DNA of 64,000 nucleotides from Arthrobacter tumbae (lineage in GTDB: Bacteria; Actinomycetota; Actinomycetes; Actinomycetales; Micrococcaceae). The DNA lies in contig NZ_JAFBCC010000001.1 of NCBI RefSeq assembly GCF_016907495.1, forward strand, positions 2,170,001-2,234,000, read 5' to 3'. Below, piece after piece: positions 1,966-12,398 of this stretch (within the stretch, counting starts at the first letter, position 1; each line of letters begins with the position of its first letter). Under the pieces are notes generated by a model. The model saw only the letters and a list, made by a program, of their open reading frames with translations. It was not told where the DNA came from and made no database searches. A program made the position numbers and the translations under genes.

Positions 1966-2223
1966 CGACTCGAATTCCTCTCCCTCGTCGAAAAGATCTC
2001 AAGAGCTGCTCCAAGCGGACACAGCCACACGACTGGTGACCTTGGCCGGGCTCTCCACGACCTGAGTTGGCTCTACACAGAGTCAGTCGTACGGTTTCAT
2101 CAGCGTTACCACCTGCCTGAAAAACTCGTGCTCCTTGAGCCACATGAAGCCCGAGTCTCTCGCTAACTCGCCGCAGCAATAAGTTCCAGTGGTTCTGCAA
2201 TGGAGCTGCTGCTCCCTGACTGA

Positions 2224-2697
2224 CTATGCCGCGAACTCTGCACCACAAATCAAACAAAATGCGCGTTCTGTGGACGCTTCAGGAACCTTAAGTGGTTCAT
2301 TCGGGTGGCAGGGTGGCTCGACGATGACCATGTCGTCGGGCTCGACGAGTGGTTCGGGCGTCTCAATATCCAGGCTGAATGATGCGTTTGGCTTGAATTT
2401 CATGCCTTTGATGCCCTTGAAGGCGTCCGCTACGGCGTCCTGCATTGCCTGATCAATCGCTCCGCCAGCACTCCCAAAACCATATTCGAGTTGTGCCGGG
2501 GTCCACCACTCACCTAGACCCGCTGCGACACCACACAGAGGACAGAAGTATTGGGAGACCGGTTCGGCTTCATCATCGCCTTCGGCGCGGCTAAACCACT
2601 TGAACTCCTGTTCGCAGGTCGGGCACTCGCGGCGCAAGAAGCCGTCACTGTCGAGTGGCAGGCTCACTGGAACTTGAATCTCATCATCCATCGTCAT
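2224..2697 (-). CDS. Small zinc-ribbon protein coupled to the TIR-like gene
   Basis: A 157-residue soluble protein of unknown function. Two cysteine pairs near the N-terminus (CPTC at 25-28, CPLC at 52-55) can form one zinc ribbon. A second possible site combines a Cys-His near residue 130 with CLIC at about 148-151. Between them lies a stretch with small and hydrophobic residues (GSAGGAIDQAMQDAVADAF). Its ATG overlaps the stop of the upstream TIR-like gene by one base (TAATG), so the two are almost certainly co-transcribed and translationally coupled, which suggests a shared pathway or complex. No signal peptide or membrane segment is seen. I cannot name its role: adaptor, nucleic-acid sensor or regulator are all possible. 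Confidence 0.8.
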   Translation of the reverse strand: MTMDDEIQVPVSLPLDSDGFLRRECPTCEQEFKWFSRAEGDDEAEPVSQYFCPLCGVAAGLGEWWTPAQLEYGFGSAGGAIDQAMQDAVADAFKGIKGMKFKPNASFSLDIETPEPLVEPDDMVIVEPPCHPNEPLKVPEASTERAFCLICGAEFAA

Positions 2698-3608
2698 TAT
2701 CCGTTCAGATCGAGGAACACGTCTTGGCTTACCTGATCGCCGCTCTCGGTACGCGCCGTGATTGTGACGTCGAAGGCATCTCCTCCTTGCGCGCCACCAA
2801 ATGTCATGCGCCCTTCATTGAGGACGTCCACGGTGACTGAGCGACCGCCACCTGGGATCTTCGCGATCGCAGTGGCATTGGTTGATCGAAGATCGAGGGC
2901 TACGTCCTCAGGTATCGACAGGGCAACGTCGTAGGCGGTTTCTGTTCCTCTGTTGATCACTTGGAGCTTGTCGATGCGATTGCCGCCCTTGTTGAAGTAC
3001 TTGAGATCGAACTCGATCGCCTTCCTCGTTGGTGCGCCGCCAGATAGTCGACGCCCGAGTGGGAGACCGTCGCCCGGTGGAGGAGGTGCTGTGAAGTCAC
3101 CAGACGTGTGCCAGTCCGTGCCATTGAGGTTGACGGCGCATCCTGCCGTTCGGAGCCGGGTCGCCAATGCCTGGCGACTCGCCGGGTTGTTGGACAGTCG
3201 GATTGCATGGCGTCCAGCAACATCACTGAACGGTCGCACCTCACCCACTTCCACGAGCACCGTTCGCTTGGCGTCACGGCCTAACGCCATGCCAGCTTCG
3301 AACAGCACGTTGGGACGAGCTTGTGGCGCGGGCCGCGTTTCATGATCATTCTCGCCATGGCCGTAGCGGGGCTGTAGATACGCCACCTCATCGGGTGTCA
3401 TCAGGACGACTACAGCAGTTGCATGCTCGAAGGCGGCATCGAGCACCTGCCCGATGTAGGGAGAGCCCTCGCCTGTGAGTTCAACAGCGCTTGTCCACTC
3501 CATTGGTGACAAGTTGATACTCCGTAGGAAATCGAATATCGATCTACGGAGCGCCTCATTGCGACCATGCACGACGAACACGGAGCGATTATTACTCGGA
3601 CTGTTCAA
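2697..3608 (-). CDS. TIR-like nucleotide-binding protein with C-terminal beta domain
   Basis: A 303-residue protein. Residues about 8-125 match the TIR-like 'predicted nucleotide-binding' family (PF10137 type): first strand VFVVHGRN, central strand AVVVLMTPDEV, and NVLFEAGMALGRD, where Glu104 sits at the position of the conserved TIR acidic residue. Proteins of this family act as NAD-degrading effectors in some antiphage systems (family knowledge). Residues about 195-303 are beta-rich (LQVINRGTETAYDVALSIP) and look like an Ig-like or CARDB-like module, possibly a sensor or assembly domain. Translation appears to start at TTG (3608), six bases after a strong GGAGGAG site. It is directly coupled to a zinc-ribbon gene; no cyclase, STING or SAVED gene is visible nearby. 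A defence role is inference. Confidence 0.75.
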   Translation of the reverse strand: MNSPSNNRSVFVVHGRNEALRRSIFDFLRSINLSPMEWTSAVELTGEGSPYIGQVLDAAFEHATAVVVLMTPDEVAYLQPRYGHGENDHETRPAPQARPNVLFEAGMALGRDAKRTVLVEVGEVRPFSDVAGRHAIRLSNNPASRQALATRLRTAGCAVNLNGTDWHTSGDFTAPPPPGDGLPLGRRLSGGAPTRKAIEFDLKYFNKGGNRIDKLQVINRGTETAYDVALSIPEDVALDLRSTNATAIAKIPGGGRSVTVDVLNEGRMTFGGAQGGDAFDVTITARTESGDQVSQDVFLDLNG

Positions 3609-3804
3609 GTGGGTCTCCTCCTAGAGAATCAGGCTCATCTTCGGTGGACAAGCTTCACCCGCCACGATAGATGGTGCTCCTGACAAACGCTGGGCATCTG
3701 GTCGTCGGTGCTGCATAAGCCGAACCCTCTGCGCGCGATGGGCGCGCCGCCGGCTAGCTAACTGGCCGAAAGCCGGTCCTTCTGGCTGTGAGGTTGACCG
3801 TCGC

Positions 3805-4476
3805 CTACTTTGGGAAGTACCGCCAAGTGCCCTCTGTGAAGATGTCCACAGCGTCGTCGGTCACGCTGATGGCCGTCTGATCATCGATGGCGTAGGACGG
3901 GTGGCCTATACCGGCCGCCCATCTTTCTGCTGCCGCAAGCGAATTGCCGGGTCCCCCATCCGGCGCGAGGTGCGGACAGATTGAAAAGTGAACTACTCCC
4001 AATGCGCTGTCGTCACCCGTTGCCGGCTTCCAGCCGACGAACTCTCGACCGATCTGCGGAGTCATCACCATGCTGCCAGCGCTCATCCCAACCCACACAG
4101 TTTTCGTCAGGGACAGGAACATGTCGGCCAGACCCGAGTGCTGCAGCCAGTGGTTGAGGTATAGCGCGTCACCGCCAGCCGCCAGTAACACGTCGGTCTC
4201 AAGAACGAGTGGCTTCCACCGCTCTTCATCGATGCTCGGCAGCGCAGTCAATTCCAGCACGCCGACCGATCTCCATCCCAAGTTGACCATGGGATTCTCG
4301 GATCTCCCGCTGATAAATTCCCAGGCCTTGACGCCGGGGCCGACCCACGGGTGACCATATTGGGCGGTGGGAATGCACAGTGCGCTGGACTCGCTGATGG
4401 GCTTGCCGAGAAGTTGTTCGAGCGCAGTGAGGATCGTTGGATTGGTGACGCCCGCCGAAGTGAGAAGAAGCTTCAC
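3805..4476 (-). CDS. Peptidase E-like protein, family S51
   Basis: A 223-residue cytosolic protein of the S51 (alpha-aspartyl dipeptidase / peptidase E) superfamily. The nucleophile elbow is visible as VWVGMSAGSMVMTP near residue 130, with the serine in GMSAGS. DVLLAAGGDALYLNHW and the C-terminal AIDDQTAI resemble the family's other conserved blocks. Length fits the family. The start is GTG at 4476 with only a weak upstream purine stretch. It stands alone between the TIR-like pair and the serine recombinase. The substrate is unknown; members cleave Asp-X dipeptides or have other peptidase roles. Confidence 0.8.
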   Translation of the reverse strand: MKLLLTSAGVTNPTILTALEQLLGKPISESSALCIPTAQYGHPWVGPGVKAWEFISGRSENPMVNLGWRSVGVLELTALPSIDEERWKPLVLETDVLLAAGGDALYLNHWLQHSGLADMFLSLTKTVWVGMSAGSMVMTPQIGREFVGWKPATGDDSALGVVHFSICPHLAPDGGPGNSLAAAERWAAGIGHPSYAIDDQTAISVTDDAVDIFTEGTWRYFPK

Positions 4477-4586: not shown

Positions 4587-5168
4587 ATGGTGAAGATCGG
4601 CTACGCGCGAGTCTCTACACACGAACAAGACCTAACCATTCAAAGGGAAGGCCTGGCCGCTCTCGGAGTAGAGGCGGACAACACTTACGTCGACCACGGG
4701 CTGACCGGCACCAACCGCGCTCGCCCCGGACTCCTTCAGGCAATGGCGGCCGTGAGAACAGGTGACACCCTCGTCGTCACCAAACTTGACCGGCTTGCGC
4801 GGTCGCTGCCGGACGCGCGGGACATCGCCGATGAACTCACCCGAAAAGGTGTGTCGCTAAGCCTGGGTAACAGCGTCTACGATCCGACTGACCCGGTGGG
4901 CCGTCTCATGTTCAACGTGCTCGGCATGGTCGCCGAGTTCGAGTCAGACCTGATTCGAGCCCGCACGCGCGAAGGCATGGCCGTTGCGAAAGCCAAAGGC
5001 CGGCTGCGGGGCAAGCCACCCAAACTGTCTCTCACTCGCCGCCGTCACCTATACGAGCTGGTCGACGAAGACAAGTACACACAGATGGAATTGGCCGAGA
5101 TATTCTCAGTCTCCCGGACGACTATCTATCGTGAGATCAAAAGACGCGCTGCGACGACGAGATCCTGA
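4587..5168 (+). CDS. Serine recombinase (resolvase/invertase family)
   Basis: A 193-residue small serine recombinase. The catalytic domain opens with IGYARVSTHEQD, putting the nucleophile at Ser10, and carries VVTKLDRLARS plus the LMFNVLGMVAEFESDLIRART region typical of the dimer interface and E-helix. The C-terminal YTQMELAEIFSVSRTTIYREIK is the helix-turn-helix that binds the crossover site. It faces away from the TIR-like and S51 genes and ends 5 bp before the siderophore permease stop, so it marks the right edge of the lower-GC accessory region. No transposase, matching inverted repeats or obvious res site were found next to it, so it may be an orphan resolvase or a relic of a mobile element. 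Confidence 0.9.
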   Translation: MVKIGYARVSTHEQDLTIQREGLAALGVEADNTYVDHGLTGTNRARPGLLQAMAAVRTGDTLVVTKLDRLARSLPDARDIADELTRKGVSLSLGNSVYDPTDPVGRLMFNVLGMVAEFESDLIRARTREGMAVAKAKGRLRGKPPKLSLTRRRHLYELVDEDKYTQMELAEIFSVSRTTIYREIKRRAATTRS

Positions 5169-9245: not shown

Positions 9246-10109
9246 TCAGCGGATTACCGCGTACCAGATCAACAGCATGGTCACGAAGAACCCGGTCACA
9301 TAGTTCAGCCACAGGAACCGTTCCCAACCGCGGTGGGCGAGCTCGGCGTCGTCGTCCTCCAATGAACCAAAGGGGACGATATTGACCACGTACAGCAGAA
9401 CCAGGAAGGAGGCCAACGGCCCCGGCCACGGAGTGAAGAGCAGGAGAGCACCGCTGACCAGATAGGAGGCGATGGCAAACCTCACGGTCGCCCGGCCACC
9501 GGTCACCGTCGCAATGGAGGCGATACCGCCGGCCCGGTCAGCCACGACGTCCTGCACCGCGCCGAACGCCTGGCTCGCCACGCCCCACAGGAAAAACGAG
9601 GCCAGCAGTGCCCACAGCGCCGGCGTGAACTCGGCCTGCGCCAGCACCAGCCCATAGACTGCCGGGCTGACAAAGTGCGTGCTTGAGGTGAGTGAGTCCA
9701 GGAAGGGGCGTTCCTTGAAACGGAGTTTCGGAGCGCTGTACGCAATCACCGCGAAGACACTGATGGCCAGCACCAGCCAGGACAACGGCCCGCCCAGCAA
9801 AACCAATGCCACGAGGAACGGCACATTCGTGGCGATCGCCGCGCGGAGGGTGGTCGCGTGCATGGTGCGGTCGAGCACGGCCCCTTCCACGCCGCCCTTG
9901 CGCGGATTCCGGAGGTCCGACTCGTAGTCGAACACGTCATTGATCCCGTACATCGCCAGGTTGTAGGGGATCAGGAAGTAGAGCGTTCCAAGAATCCAGG
10001 CGAGGTCGATCTGCCCGGCGGTCAGCACGTAAGCGGCCGCGAACGGAAACGCCGTGTTCACCCAGGACAGCGGGCGCGAGGACACCAGCAGGGTGGAAAG
10101 GGTCTTCAT
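9246..10109 (-). CDS. crtEb: Lycopene elongase, UbiA-type prenyltransferase
   Basis: A 287-residue membrane prenyltransferase that adds C5 units from dimethylallyl diphosphate to both ends of lycopene, making the C50 skeleton (flavuxanthin in Corynebacterium). The first Asp-rich motif is NDVFDYESD and the second is DVVADRAGG, both on cytosolic loops of the UbiA fold; eight to nine hydrophobic segments follow. I use the ATG at 10109 (MKTLSTLL) because it overlaps the crtYf stop (ATGA); an in-frame start 13 codons upstream lacks support. It is the last gene of the crt operon. A bacterioruberin-like product would need the same step, but the CrtYe/Yf pair points to decaprenoxanthin. Confidence 0.9.
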   Translation of the reverse strand: MKTLSTLLVSSRPLSWVNTAFPFAAAYVLTAGQIDLAWILGTLYFLIPYNLAMYGINDVFDYESDLRNPRKGGVEGAVLDRTMHATTLRAAIATNVPFLVALVLLGGPLSWLVLAISVFAVIAYSAPKLRFKERPFLDSLTSSTHFVSPAVYGLVLAQAEFTPALWALLASFFLWGVASQAFGAVQDVVADRAGGIASIATVTGGRATVRFAIASYLVSGALLLFTPWPGPLASFLVLLYVVNIVPFGSLEDDDAELAHRGWERFLWLNYVTGFFVTMLLIWYAVIR

Positions 10110-10429
10110 GGCTGCCGCTTCCCCGCGCGTTTGCCGAGCAGGATCCACAGCGCGGGCAGTAGAAGCACCGCGGCCACGGGGTAGGCGAAGTCCTCAATCG
10201 GAGCGAACCCGATGTAGACGCCGGAGATCAGCTCCCGGTCATAACTGAAGAGCCCGAACGCGATCATCATGCTGTCAAACACAGCGGTGAGAATCAGGAC
10301 GACGACGGCAGCGGCACCTGCCGCAACGAGTGCAGTCCCGCGTCTGCCGTCCTTCAACGCAGCCGCTGCGAGGCCGCCGACAAGAAGCGCCGGAAGGAGG
10401 AACACCGCATTGAGGGCCCAGTAGGTCAC
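10106..10429 (-). CDS. crtYf: C50 carotenoid epsilon-cyclase subunit CrtYf
   Basis: A 107-residue membrane protein with three hydrophobic segments, one half of the heterodimeric cyclase that closes epsilon-rings on the C50 chain to give decaprenoxanthin. It contains FDSMMIAFGLFSYDRELISG and the PIEDFAYP motif, the acidic block characteristic of lycopene cyclase small subunits. The GTG start at 10429 overlaps the crtYe stop (GTGA), and its own stop overlaps the crtEb start, so all are translationally coupled. The small size is normal for these split subunits. Confidence 0.88.
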   Translation of the reverse strand: MTYWALNAVFLLPALLVGGLAAAALKDGRRGTALVAAGAAAVVVLILTAVFDSMMIAFGLFSYDRELISGVYIGFAPIEDFAYPVAAVLLLPALWILLGKRAGKRQP

Positions 10430-10791
10430 GGCTGCCCTCCCGGCTCGTCCGACAGTTGCCGTGCGCCCCGGGGACTGCTGTTGCGCTCCGCGATGATCCG
10501 CCGGAACCACAGGAACAGGTTCATGACCAGATAACACAGGAAGGCGAGAAAGATCGGTTCCTCCAACGGCAACTCCGGCGCGAGCATCACCCCCGTCATC
10601 GCGGTGGCGCCCCGGTAGAAGATTCCGAGCCCTATTCCCGCGAGGTCCCACACGAGGAAGAACAGCACTCCGGTGACAAGAACGACGGCGGCCCGGCGGG
10701 GATCGTCCCAGAAGAAAAGGCGGAGGCGCTGGTCGAGAAGCATCATGCAGCCCAGCGAGACCAGCAGGAACAGCAGATAGGCAGCGCCCAT
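10426..10791 (-). CDS. crtYe: C50 carotenoid epsilon-cyclase subunit CrtYe
   Basis: A 121-residue membrane protein, partner of CrtYf. It shows three hydrophobic segments and the paired motif LPLEEPIFLAFLCY, equivalent to the PxE(E/D) motif of lycopene cyclases; the WDLAGIGLGIFYRG stretch is also typical. The ATG at 10791 overlaps the crtI stop (ATGA), which fixes the start; the frame stays open far upstream inside crtI but that part is out-of-frame crtI sequence. Confidence 0.88.
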   Translation of the reverse strand: MGAAYLLFLLVSLGCMMLLDQRLRLFFWDDPRRAAVVLVTGVLFFLVWDLAGIGLGIFYRGATAMTGVMLAPELPLEEPIFLAFLCYLVMNLFLWFRRIIAERNSSPRGARQLSDEPGGQP

Positions 10792-12398
10792 CACGTGACC
10801 GTGTTTTCGCGGACCCTGCCGGCCCGCAGCGGCACGGGAAGCGGGCCGGTACTCAGGTCCCTGCGCAGCCGCTTGATCACCAGTTCGGCACTGATCAGGC
10901 ACATCGGGATCCCGATGCCGGGGATGGTGGAGCCGCCCGCGTAGTACAGGCCCTGGACCTTGCGGCTGACATTGCCCGCGCGGAAGAACGCGCTCTGCTG
11001 CAGCGTGTGGGCCGGGCCAAGCGAGGTCCCCTTCCACGAGTGGTAGTCCCGCTCGAAGTCCGCCGGACCGTAGCTGCGCCGGAGCACTATGCGGTCCGCG
11101 AGGTCCGGGATGCCGGCCCATTCGCCGAGCTGTTCGATGACGGCATCCGCGACGCGCTCGATGCGCTCGCCGCCCGCACCTCCCAGGCTGGGATCCGCCG
11201 GAATCGGGACCAGGACAAAGACGTTCTCGTGTCCGTCCGGTGCCACCGTGGGATCCGTGGCACTCGGTTTGCACACATACATGGACGCGGGCGTGGGAAT
11301 GAAGGGAGTCCGTCCGAAGATCGCGCGGAAGTTTTCCTCCCAGTCACCGGTGAACAGCAGTGTGTGGTGCTGCAGTTCAGGCAGCTCTCCGCGGACGCCC
11401 AGGTAGAGCAGCAGGGCGCTGGGTCCGGCTGTGCTGCGGTTCCAGTAACGCTGGGGGTAGGTCTGCAGCTCGCGGGGGAGCAGCGTGGTTTCGGTATGGT
11501 GAAGGTCCGCTGCGGAGACGACGACGTCGGCGGCGATGGTTCGCTCCGCCCCGTCAGCCGAGCGGTAGCTCACCCCGCGTACGGCTGCGGGACGCTTGCG
11601 GGATGCCGTGGCGGTGGTGTCGATCCCGGTGACCTCGGCACCCGTGGTGATGGTGACGCCGGCTTTTCGGGCCAGGCCCTCCAGTGCGTCCACCAGCCGG
11701 GTGAACCCGCCCATGGGATAGAGCACGCCGTCGTCGAGGTCCAGGTGGCTCATCAGGTGGTACATGCTCGGCGCCGTGAACGGCGAGGTCCCGAGGAACA
11801 CCGCAGGGTATTCGAGGATCTGCTGCAGCCGCGGGTCGCTCACATAACGGCGCGCGTAGTTGTGGAGCGGTTCCAGCAGCAGGCGGCCGAGCCGCGGCAG
11901 GCGCCCGAGCACGTCCGGCGTCAGCAGCGAAGTGAACGATTCGAAGGTCGAGTAGAGGAACCGGCGGGTGGCCATGGTGTAGGTGTCCGCAGCGGAATCA
12001 AGGTACTGCTCCAGCTTCGCGCCGGCACCCGGTTCCAGCCGCTCGAAGAGCTCCACCACCCGGTGCCGCTCGGCGGGAACATCAACGGGTTCGGGGTACC
12101 CCTCGGACAGGAGCCGGTAGCCCGGATCGAGCTTCACGAGGTCCAGCTGCTCATCGGCCGAGGTGCCCAGCAGCCGGAAATAGTGGTCGATCACCTCCGG
12201 CATGAGGTACCAGGAGGGGCCCGCGTCGAACCGGAAGCCGTCCTCGCTCCAGGAGCCGGCCCTGCCGCCCACGGCGTCCTGCTTTTCCAGCACCGTGACG
12301 GAATGGCCCTCCGTGGCCAACAGCGCCGCGGTTGCCAGTCCGCTGATACCGCCACCGATGACGACGACGGCGCGTCCGGACGGTGTGCGTGCCTTCAC
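10791..12398 (-). CDS. crtI: Phytoene desaturase
   Basis: A 535-residue FAD enzyme that desaturates phytoene to lycopene. The N-terminal Rossmann motif is VVIGGGISGLATAALLA, followed by VTVLEK and the FDAGPSWYLMP substrate-entry block typical of bacterial CrtI. The C-terminal FAD signature YYAGGSTIPGIGIPMCLISAE is clear. Length is within the family range. Its start overlaps the crtB stop and its stop overlaps the crtYe start. It probably acts at the membrane surface and supplies lycopene to CrtEb. Confidence 0.95.
   Translation of the reverse strand: MKARTPSGRAVVVIGGGISGLATAALLATEGHSVTVLEKQDAVGGRAGSWSEDGFRFDAGPSWYLMPEVIDHYFRLLGTSADEQLDLVKLDPGYRLLSEGYPEPVDVPAERHRVVELFERLEPGAGAKLEQYLDSAADTYTMATRRFLYSTFESFTSLLTPDVLGRLPRLGRLLLEPLHNYARRYVSDPRLQQILEYPAVFLGTSPFTAPSMYHLMSHLDLDDGVLYPMGGFTRLVDALEGLARKAGVTITTGAEVTGIDTTATASRKRPAAVRGVSYRSADGAERTIAADVVVSAADLHHTETTLLPRELQTYPQRYWNRSTAGPSALLLYLGVRGELPELQHHTLLFTGDWEENFRAIFGRTPFIPTPASMYVCKPSATDPTVAPDGHENVFVLVPIPADPSLGGAGGERIERVADAVIEQLGEWAGIPDLADRIVLRRSYGPADFERDYHSWKGTSLGPAHTLQQSAFFRAGNVSRKVQGLYYAGGSTIPGIGIPMCLISAELVIKRLRRDLSTGPLPVPLRAGRVRENTVT

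Follow-up and report, generated by a model that had tools for sequence, protein, structure and literature searches.

TIR-domain NADases are widespread in bacterial immunity, and the central question about each is how it is switched on. TIR families, with PF10137 as one clade, are described in the accessible portion of one article (PMC13142454). In the available text on the Swarozyc system, DUF4062 is described as a TIR-like NADase that acts in antiphage defence and forms assemblies with the phage portal, binding of the portal to the C-terminal part activating the NADase (PMC13174449). Accessory domains that are shared among effectors are described in the accessible sections on HEPN systems, with one such domain (AbiJ-NTD and others) joined to HEPN, TIR, PLD-fold or kinase effectors (PMC3710099). 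The PADLOC collection further holds the candidates PDC-M14, composed of M14A and M14B, and PDC-S35, names that are absent from the literature searched.

The locus considered here lies near the beginning of a 64,000-nucleotide stretch of DNA (the window), which comprises positions 2170001-2234000 of the 3.70-Mb single-contig genome of Arthrobacter tumbae. A preliminary description of this DNA had placed two coupled genes on the minus strand, and both open reading frames were found there. The first (2697..3608, minus strand) encodes a protein of 303 aa, here called TIR-Ig, from a TTG start; the strong ribosome site ascribed to this start is an AGGAGG Shine-Dalgarno sequence 8 nt before the TTG (3617..3622, minus strand), read from the sequence, whereas the tuned expression that the TTG had been taken to suggest is not supported by the analysis. 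The second (2224..2697, minus strand) encodes the zinc protein, of 157 aa from an ATG at 2697 or 155 aa from an ATG at 2691. The coupling through a TAATG overlap that had been proposed stands in part: the overlap is real, with an ATG at 2697, and the genes adjoin tightly, but because an overlapping ATG occurs in only two of the six nearest kin (L016 and L018, among L016-L021), the exact overlap is not a conserved coupling device. A start codon lies 5 nt past the TIR stop in all six of these kin, as does the in-frame ATG at 2691 in the window, and the kin point to this ATG as the start in preference to that at 2697. The gap between the TIR and zinc genes falls between -4 and +31 nt in 63 of 65 rows with TIR upstream (rows that include duplicates and the window's own copies), so that the two genes form a tight unit; the two larger gaps belong to loci with an interrupted TIR frame.

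The TIR assignment is borne out by Pfam, in which PF10137 (CAP12-PCTIR_TIR) matches residues 10-139 (3192..3581, minus strand) with 90.8 bits against a cut-off of 24.7 (E 8e-26); at E<=0.001 TIR-Ig is the sole match to this family in the host genome. Glu104, within NVLFEAGM (3297-3299, minus strand), is the residue found in all 47 sequences of the alignment, that of the window among them. It is a candidate catalytic residue, a role that we assume from TIR NADases at large and not from alignment to a solved relative, and TIR-domain NADase activity is predicted from the PF10137 match together with this conserved Glu. Searches by sequence returned no real solved relative of the TIR protein, only haloacid dehalogenase matches at E 0.33.

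The C-terminal half of TIR-Ig has no Pfam match above threshold. Its earlier characterization as a beta-rich, Ig-like domain is a fair reading of the AlphaFold model and of Foldseek matches to Ig-like ear domains. The model, built with 47 sequences, has a mean pLDDT of 89.7 and a pTM of 0.64, with a loose linker at 188-191, and DSSP assigns residues 199-300 (2709..3014, minus strand) nearly all to beta structure, with one short helix. The ear domains resembled by this part include those of GGA, adaptin and TRAP, with modest scores (E about 1e-3, TMt 0.37-0.46). Because the 50 Foldseek matches listed are dominated by the Ig part, they give no independent fold match for the TIR domain. The four top-ranked of them (glycosidase/OgpA) were discarded as meaningless, with an rmsd near 25 A. 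Ear domains bind short peptides, and the likeness, which proves nothing, would fit a docking role for the Ig tail. Mean pairwise identity is 0.66 for the TIR domain, 0.50 for the zinc protein and 0.35 for the Ig domain, the fastest evolving part of the pair, as would be expected of a part facing a changing target.

In the zinc protein, a two-site zinc ribbon had been recognized, and the alignment agrees: two sets of four putative ligands, from which we infer two zinc sites, are C25, C28, C52 and C55 (2533..2625, minus strand; 64-65 of 65 sequences) and C130, H131, C148 and C151 (2245..2310, minus strand; 63-65 of 65). No curated Pfam or NCBIfam family covers the protein, and its Pfam zinc-ribbon matches are all sub-threshold. 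It does correspond to the PADLOC candidate PDC-M14A (PDLC04447) with an E value of 2.2e-17, residues 3-153 aligning to positions 1-149 of the 152 in the profile. This identity had escaped the preliminary description, as had the many other partners of the family. The AlphaFold model (65 sequences; mean pLDDT 81.8, pTM 0.71) consists of two beta-ribbon parts around a helical middle, and Foldseek finds no match to it at E below 3.6. Solved relatives by sequence are mainly C2H2 zinc fingers (best E 4.8e-8); these were rejected as repeats of Cys pairs.

The distribution of the pair was followed in a scan of 84,980 species, one genome each, with an alignment of nine actinobacterial zinc proteins as query. 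The 74 loci recovered were all classified by profiles and reading frames; drawn as they are by similarity to the window's kin, their counts describe those kin and not the zinc family at large. In 54 of the 74 the gene immediately upstream of the zinc gene is the TIR gene, and in four of the 54 (L030, L053, L060 and L066) the TIR-Ig frame is interrupted. The others comprise seven loci with a converging kinase gene whose end abuts or overlaps the zinc gene (L069, L075, L077 and L081-L084), two with a Ymh HEPN gene downstream (L064, L074), and one each with a DUF4062-like protein bearing the same Ig tail (L063), a zinc-TIR_2 fusion (L080), a Fic gene upstream (L061) and a GGDEF gene downstream (L072), as well as two zinc genes with no recognized partner (L076, L078) and five fragments (L085-L089). 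In the plasmid collection the zinc protein occurs in ten records, seven of which, all actinobacterial, have TIR-Ig directly upstream. Of the other plasmids, one from Natrinema encodes, upstream of the zinc gene, a PDC-S05-like protein (E 2.1e-15), one from Lysinibacillus has PDC-M14B downstream (E 3.7e-91) of a zinc relative that is itself PDC-M14A (E 1.3e-52), and one from Phaeobacter carries the zinc domain in a fusion. Within the window's class the family is found in four of 394 genomes, the window's included, and full-length TIR-Ig in three of the four; the fourth, G047 (L005, listed with L076), has the zinc gene without TIR-Ig. Some pairs are chromosomal, on contigs that are complete or span several megabases (L050, L051, L053 and the window among them). 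No record in the phage collection matches TIR-Ig or the zinc protein, and none was found among viral contigs scanned with the zinc protein as query. Two-gene co-inheritance, as first proposed, thus holds for 54 of the 74 loci from genomes and for seven of the ten plasmid records, and a distribution as patchy as that within the window's class, with the pair on seven plasmids, is not that of a housekeeping context. The pair is an old unit, spread across plasmids and chromosomes of many actinobacteria.

Several individual loci deserve mention. Mycobacterium sp. MBM (JAKJHY010000041.1) has two TIR-Ig/zinc pairs (L059, L070) about 5.5 kb apart on the same contig, and in Nocardioides alcanivorans an intact pair is followed immediately downstream by a second TIR-Ig copy, which is split over two frames (L029:4410-5392). 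The pair is also present on a contig with a GC content of 0.61 (L026, WNZI01000057.1) whose label is Vibrio cholerae 35D; the usual GC of V. cholerae is lower, and because of this value and its close actinobacterial kin the contig is suspected to be a contaminant.

Presence of the Ig domain and presence of the zinc gene go together. With a profile built for the Ig domain and matches counted at E<1e-5, the domain is found in 71 loci (63 distinct) and the zinc gene in 71 of 71, a count biased because most of these loci were found through the zinc protein; the same TIR without any Ig match is found at nine loci, with the zinc gene at none of them. Searches seeded with the TIR are free of this bias. 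On plasmids they place the zinc gene in 7/7 records with full-length TIR-Ig and a zinc match at 1e-5 in 0/14 TIR-only records, and in the 394 genomes the zinc gene is found in 3/3 with full-length TIR-Ig and in 0/5 with TIR only. Two loci are borderline against a strict rule: L073 has TIR and the zinc gene with a weak Ig match (E 0.011), and L111 has a weak Ig match (E 0.0017) beside a zinc match that contains a stop. The Ig domain thus tracks the zinc protein, with borderline exceptions. Pairwise distances of the zinc protein and the Ig domain are correlated (r 0.89, 47 pairs; 0 of 2000 permutations as high), but the zinc-TIR correlation is also 0.89, and common descent alone could produce such values.

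Exchange of the effector with retention of the Ig tail is seen at L063, where TIR is replaced by a DUF4062-like domain, itself a sub-threshold match (18.5 against a cut-off of 24.7 bits, E 0.0023), beside which the Ig tail (E 3.7e-8) and the zinc gene are retained. The Ig tail being found on two different NADase families, the idea that it serves for docking is testable. The DUF4062 proteins of an Amycolatopsis and a Curtobacterium plasmid, long matches to the L063 protein, have neither the Ig domain nor the zinc gene in the stretch fetched. On the Amycolatopsis plasmid a YfbU-family gene lies 3 nt upstream of the DUF4062 gene (L144:1727-3352), perhaps another two-gene form.

Beyond the TIR-Ig pair, relatives of the zinc protein accompany quite different enzymes, which suggests a reusable regulator of antivirus defence. 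Pfam supports the partners as Fic (2.8e-14), Ymh (4.7e-20 and 4.1e-21), GGDEF (5.4e-13), kinase (9.9e-18 and 6.2e-18) and TIR_2 (2e-25). A Ser/Thr kinase with a conserved C-terminal extension stands tail to tail with the zinc gene, gene ends abutting or overlapping, in eight distinct loci identified with a kinase profile (L104 in addition to the seven given above); the same profile weakly links the kinase downstream of the L080 zinc-TIR_2 fusion. Twelve proteins, six from named plasmids of six genera and six from other genomes, combine the zinc domain in one chain with a tail in which RHxxxH precedes (G/R)(V/I/L)(V/I/A)D. A motif resembling RHxxxH is carried by HEPN ribonucleases of the Ymh and Rx4-6H families, and it is by this resemblance that the tails are termed HEPN-like; Pfam did not confirm HEPN in the fusions L014, L128, L116, L117, L119 and L126. 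One such fusion adjoins a type I specificity subunit gene (L106, 1.2e-13) and another a type ISP protein gene (L110, 1.3e-108), and at L115 a zinc ORF follows a sub-threshold specificity subunit, with a separate ORF containing RHLVAH next. Some guard ribonucleases adjoin type I or type ISP restriction genes. The archaeal partner (Natrinema, Haloplanus) belongs to no Pfam family; its PDC-S05 match rests on the Natrinema protein, which the PADLOC scan covered, and by eye it may be PLD-like. Around other centres, each counted in, the family occurs in 4 of 251 genomes (Chloroflexota-like centre), 6 of 349 (Hyphomicrobiales-labelled centre; three with E<1e-5) and 9 of 188 (Enhygromyxa centre; six with E<1e-5). 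Weak matches with E above 1e-5 (L112-L114, L120-L122) were dropped as probable chance.

These associations amount to nine effector contexts, namely TIR-Ig, DUF4062-Ig, TIR_2, Ymh HEPN, RHxxxH HEPN-like, M14B, Fic, GGDEF and PDC-S05-like, with the convergent kinase in addition; five of the nine (Fic, GGDEF, the TIR_2 fusion, DUF4062-like and M14B) are represented by a single locus each. We tentatively suggest that the zinc family could serve bacteria and archaea as an immune trigger module of general use, with at least nine effector contexts and the Ig domain as the docking tail on two NADases; it is conceivable that one small sensor or gate has been plugged in again and again, as a partner gene or by fusion. 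With a single small zinc protein beside or inside many effectors, one biochemical answer could explain many uncharacterized systems.

The window's pair is bordered on one side by glycerate kinase and tripartite transporter genes and on the other by a peptidase S51 gene upstream of the pair (3805..4476, minus strand; PF03575, E 3.8e-17), a serine recombinase or resolvase gene (4587..5168, plus strand; PF00239, E 5e-41) and a FecCD transporter gene. GC content is 0.564 at 2001-3000 and 0.56-0.61 over the first 5 kb, against 0.651 for the window; the 20 kb upstream of the window are also low (0.58-0.64), and therefore no sharp island border is seen. Farther along, at 9246-12398, ORFs resemble prenyltransferase and phytoene desaturase by eye, perhaps a carotenoid cluster. 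A PADLOC scan at 1e-6 of 29 ORFs, the pair included, found no other clear defence gene among the 27 others, the only matches besides the pair being mad3, mad8, AriA, ATPase-Toprim_I-B and PtuA; all of these except PtuA were also matched by control ORFs at 1e-10, and mad3, mad8 and AriA look generic.

Neighbours at the related loci were sampled from L016-L088 (73 of the 74), where 291 ORFs of 180-900 aa not overlapping the pair were eligible; 148 were drawn at random and 145 scanned, the L061 Fic, the L072 GGDEF and one L080 ORF having been taken out by hand. At 1e-10 these 145 ORFs matched 129 PADLOC families, including RmrA (3 ORFs), capP (3) and type I restriction (1 each), and 90 control ORFs, from 13 of 20 requested stretches of same-order genomes, matched 9; since what is counted is PADLOC families, many of them redundant models, and not ORFs or systems, the difference is a trend and no measured enrichment.

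Taken together, these results lead us to regard TIR-Ig and the zinc protein as probably a two-gene NAD-depleting abortive-infection module, in which the zinc protein would be a dedicated, portable regulator working via the Ig tail. TIR-Ig would be the effector, a poised NADase, and the zinc protein would dock on its Ig tail and bind or gate it. The Ig tail and zinc protein together might be a trigger that feels a phage product, or a brake that a phage product releases; in either case the action of the phage product on the pair would cause the TIR domains to assemble and destroy NAD+, and as NAD+ falls the cell would die before phage release. More broadly, the zinc protein would be one member of a large family of portable regulators that are joined to a variety of enzymes. 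The original suggestion that the Ig-like or zinc-ribbon part does the sensing is plausible. For the zinc protein itself the role of sensor or activator is somewhat favoured because of its fusions and many partners, and that of inhibitor keeps a substantial though smaller share because TIR-Ig was not met without the zinc gene.

The same observation is what a toxin-antitoxin pair would produce, with TIR-Ig as a poison neutralized by the zinc protein and the two kept for plasmid or island stability and not for defence. Such a pair would also account for the small protein adjoining an effector, for the seven plasmids that carry both genes, for zinc genes met without TIR-Ig (L076, L078) and for those next to a TIR frame that is interrupted (four of the 54 loci), although the use of the zinc protein as seed biases the co-occurrence count and errors of assembly may explain the interrupted frames. 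Fusion of the zinc domain to TIR_2 (L080) and to the RHxxxH tail in 12 proteins is odd for an antitoxin, and plasmid upkeep does not arise for pairs on the complete or multi-megabase contigs of chromosomes; we consider this explanation unlikely. Rather improbable, in our estimation, is that the two genes form a regulatory pair of the cell, such as a switch for NAD or stress responses, that takes no part in defence against phages. The Fic, kinase and GGDEF partners also serve in signalling, and zinc ribbons are a common feature of transcription and translation factors, but a regulator of this kind sits poorly with carriage by 4 of 394 genomes and by plasmids, with a neighbourhood where models of restriction and other defence are matched more than they are among control ORFs, and with the interruption of the TIR frame in 4 of 54 loci.

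A relic of a CBASS or Pycsar effector, with a TIR that responds to a cyclic nucleotide whose synthesis is encoded elsewhere in the genome, is brought to mind by PF10137, named after CBASS Cap12 and Pycsar TIR effectors, and by the one PF00211 cyclase that the genome encodes. This cyclase lies about 738 kb from the pair and is the nearest and only PF00211 match, which led us to reject Pycsar membership; CBASS membership was rejected because no CD-NTase is adjacent (the neighbours are the S51 peptidase and the recombinase) and no SMODS nucleotidyltransferase is matched in the genome. Against the NCBIfam Cap12 equivalog TIR-Ig scores 10.7 bits with a cut-off of 450, and the gene table for the seven plasmid regions, which is incomplete, lists no cyclase. 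A relic is therefore highly improbable. The preliminary description was right that no cyclase is nearby, and the link it drew to CBASS and Pycsar is not supported beyond the shared TIR family.

With CBASS Cap12 and the Pycsar TIR effectors the window's TIR domain has PF10137 in common, but the pair has an Ig-like tail and a zinc partner in place of an adjoining cyclase. In PDC-M14 the likeness lies in the match of the zinc protein to the M14A profile; the partner there is M14B and here TIR-Ig, in reversed gene order relative to the one M14A-M14B locus seen, and filing under PDC-M14 was rejected with M14B missing (the TIR protein has no M14B match at E<=1). For PDC-S35 the likeness is between the window's TIR domain and the C-terminal part of the models (best E 7.3e-19), but in five S35 models the match starts only at position 78-130, with the TIR part, leaving the first 77-129 positions unmatched, and here the TIR is N-terminal, followed by Ig, with a second gene; this filing was rejected as well. 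Among the named domains in the accessible text on the AbiJ-NTD HEPN systems the zinc family is not recognizable, zinc ribbons being mentioned in passing (PMC3710099). Swarozyc is, as far as the available text describes it, a one-gene parallel to the proposed two-gene mechanism, alike in outline in its TIR-like NADase and C-terminal sensing part; a further likeness is the DUF4062-like protein of L063, which has the Ig tail and zinc partner of the pair. The auxiliary domain of Swarozyc, by contrast, is an HTH/winged fold that binds the phage portal, and the word zinc does not occur in the main text of the article (PMC13174449). No description of the TIR-Ig/zinc pair, of the Ig-zinc rule or of partner exchange was found in the literature searched, which includes few subscription papers. 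Each gene alone falls near a PADLOC candidate, PDC-M14A or PDC-S35; the pair, the Ig-zinc rule and the exchange of partners are the apparently new part. The pair itself would be a form of abortive infection through a TIR effector, a known kind of system, and the zinc family may offer a wider discovery.
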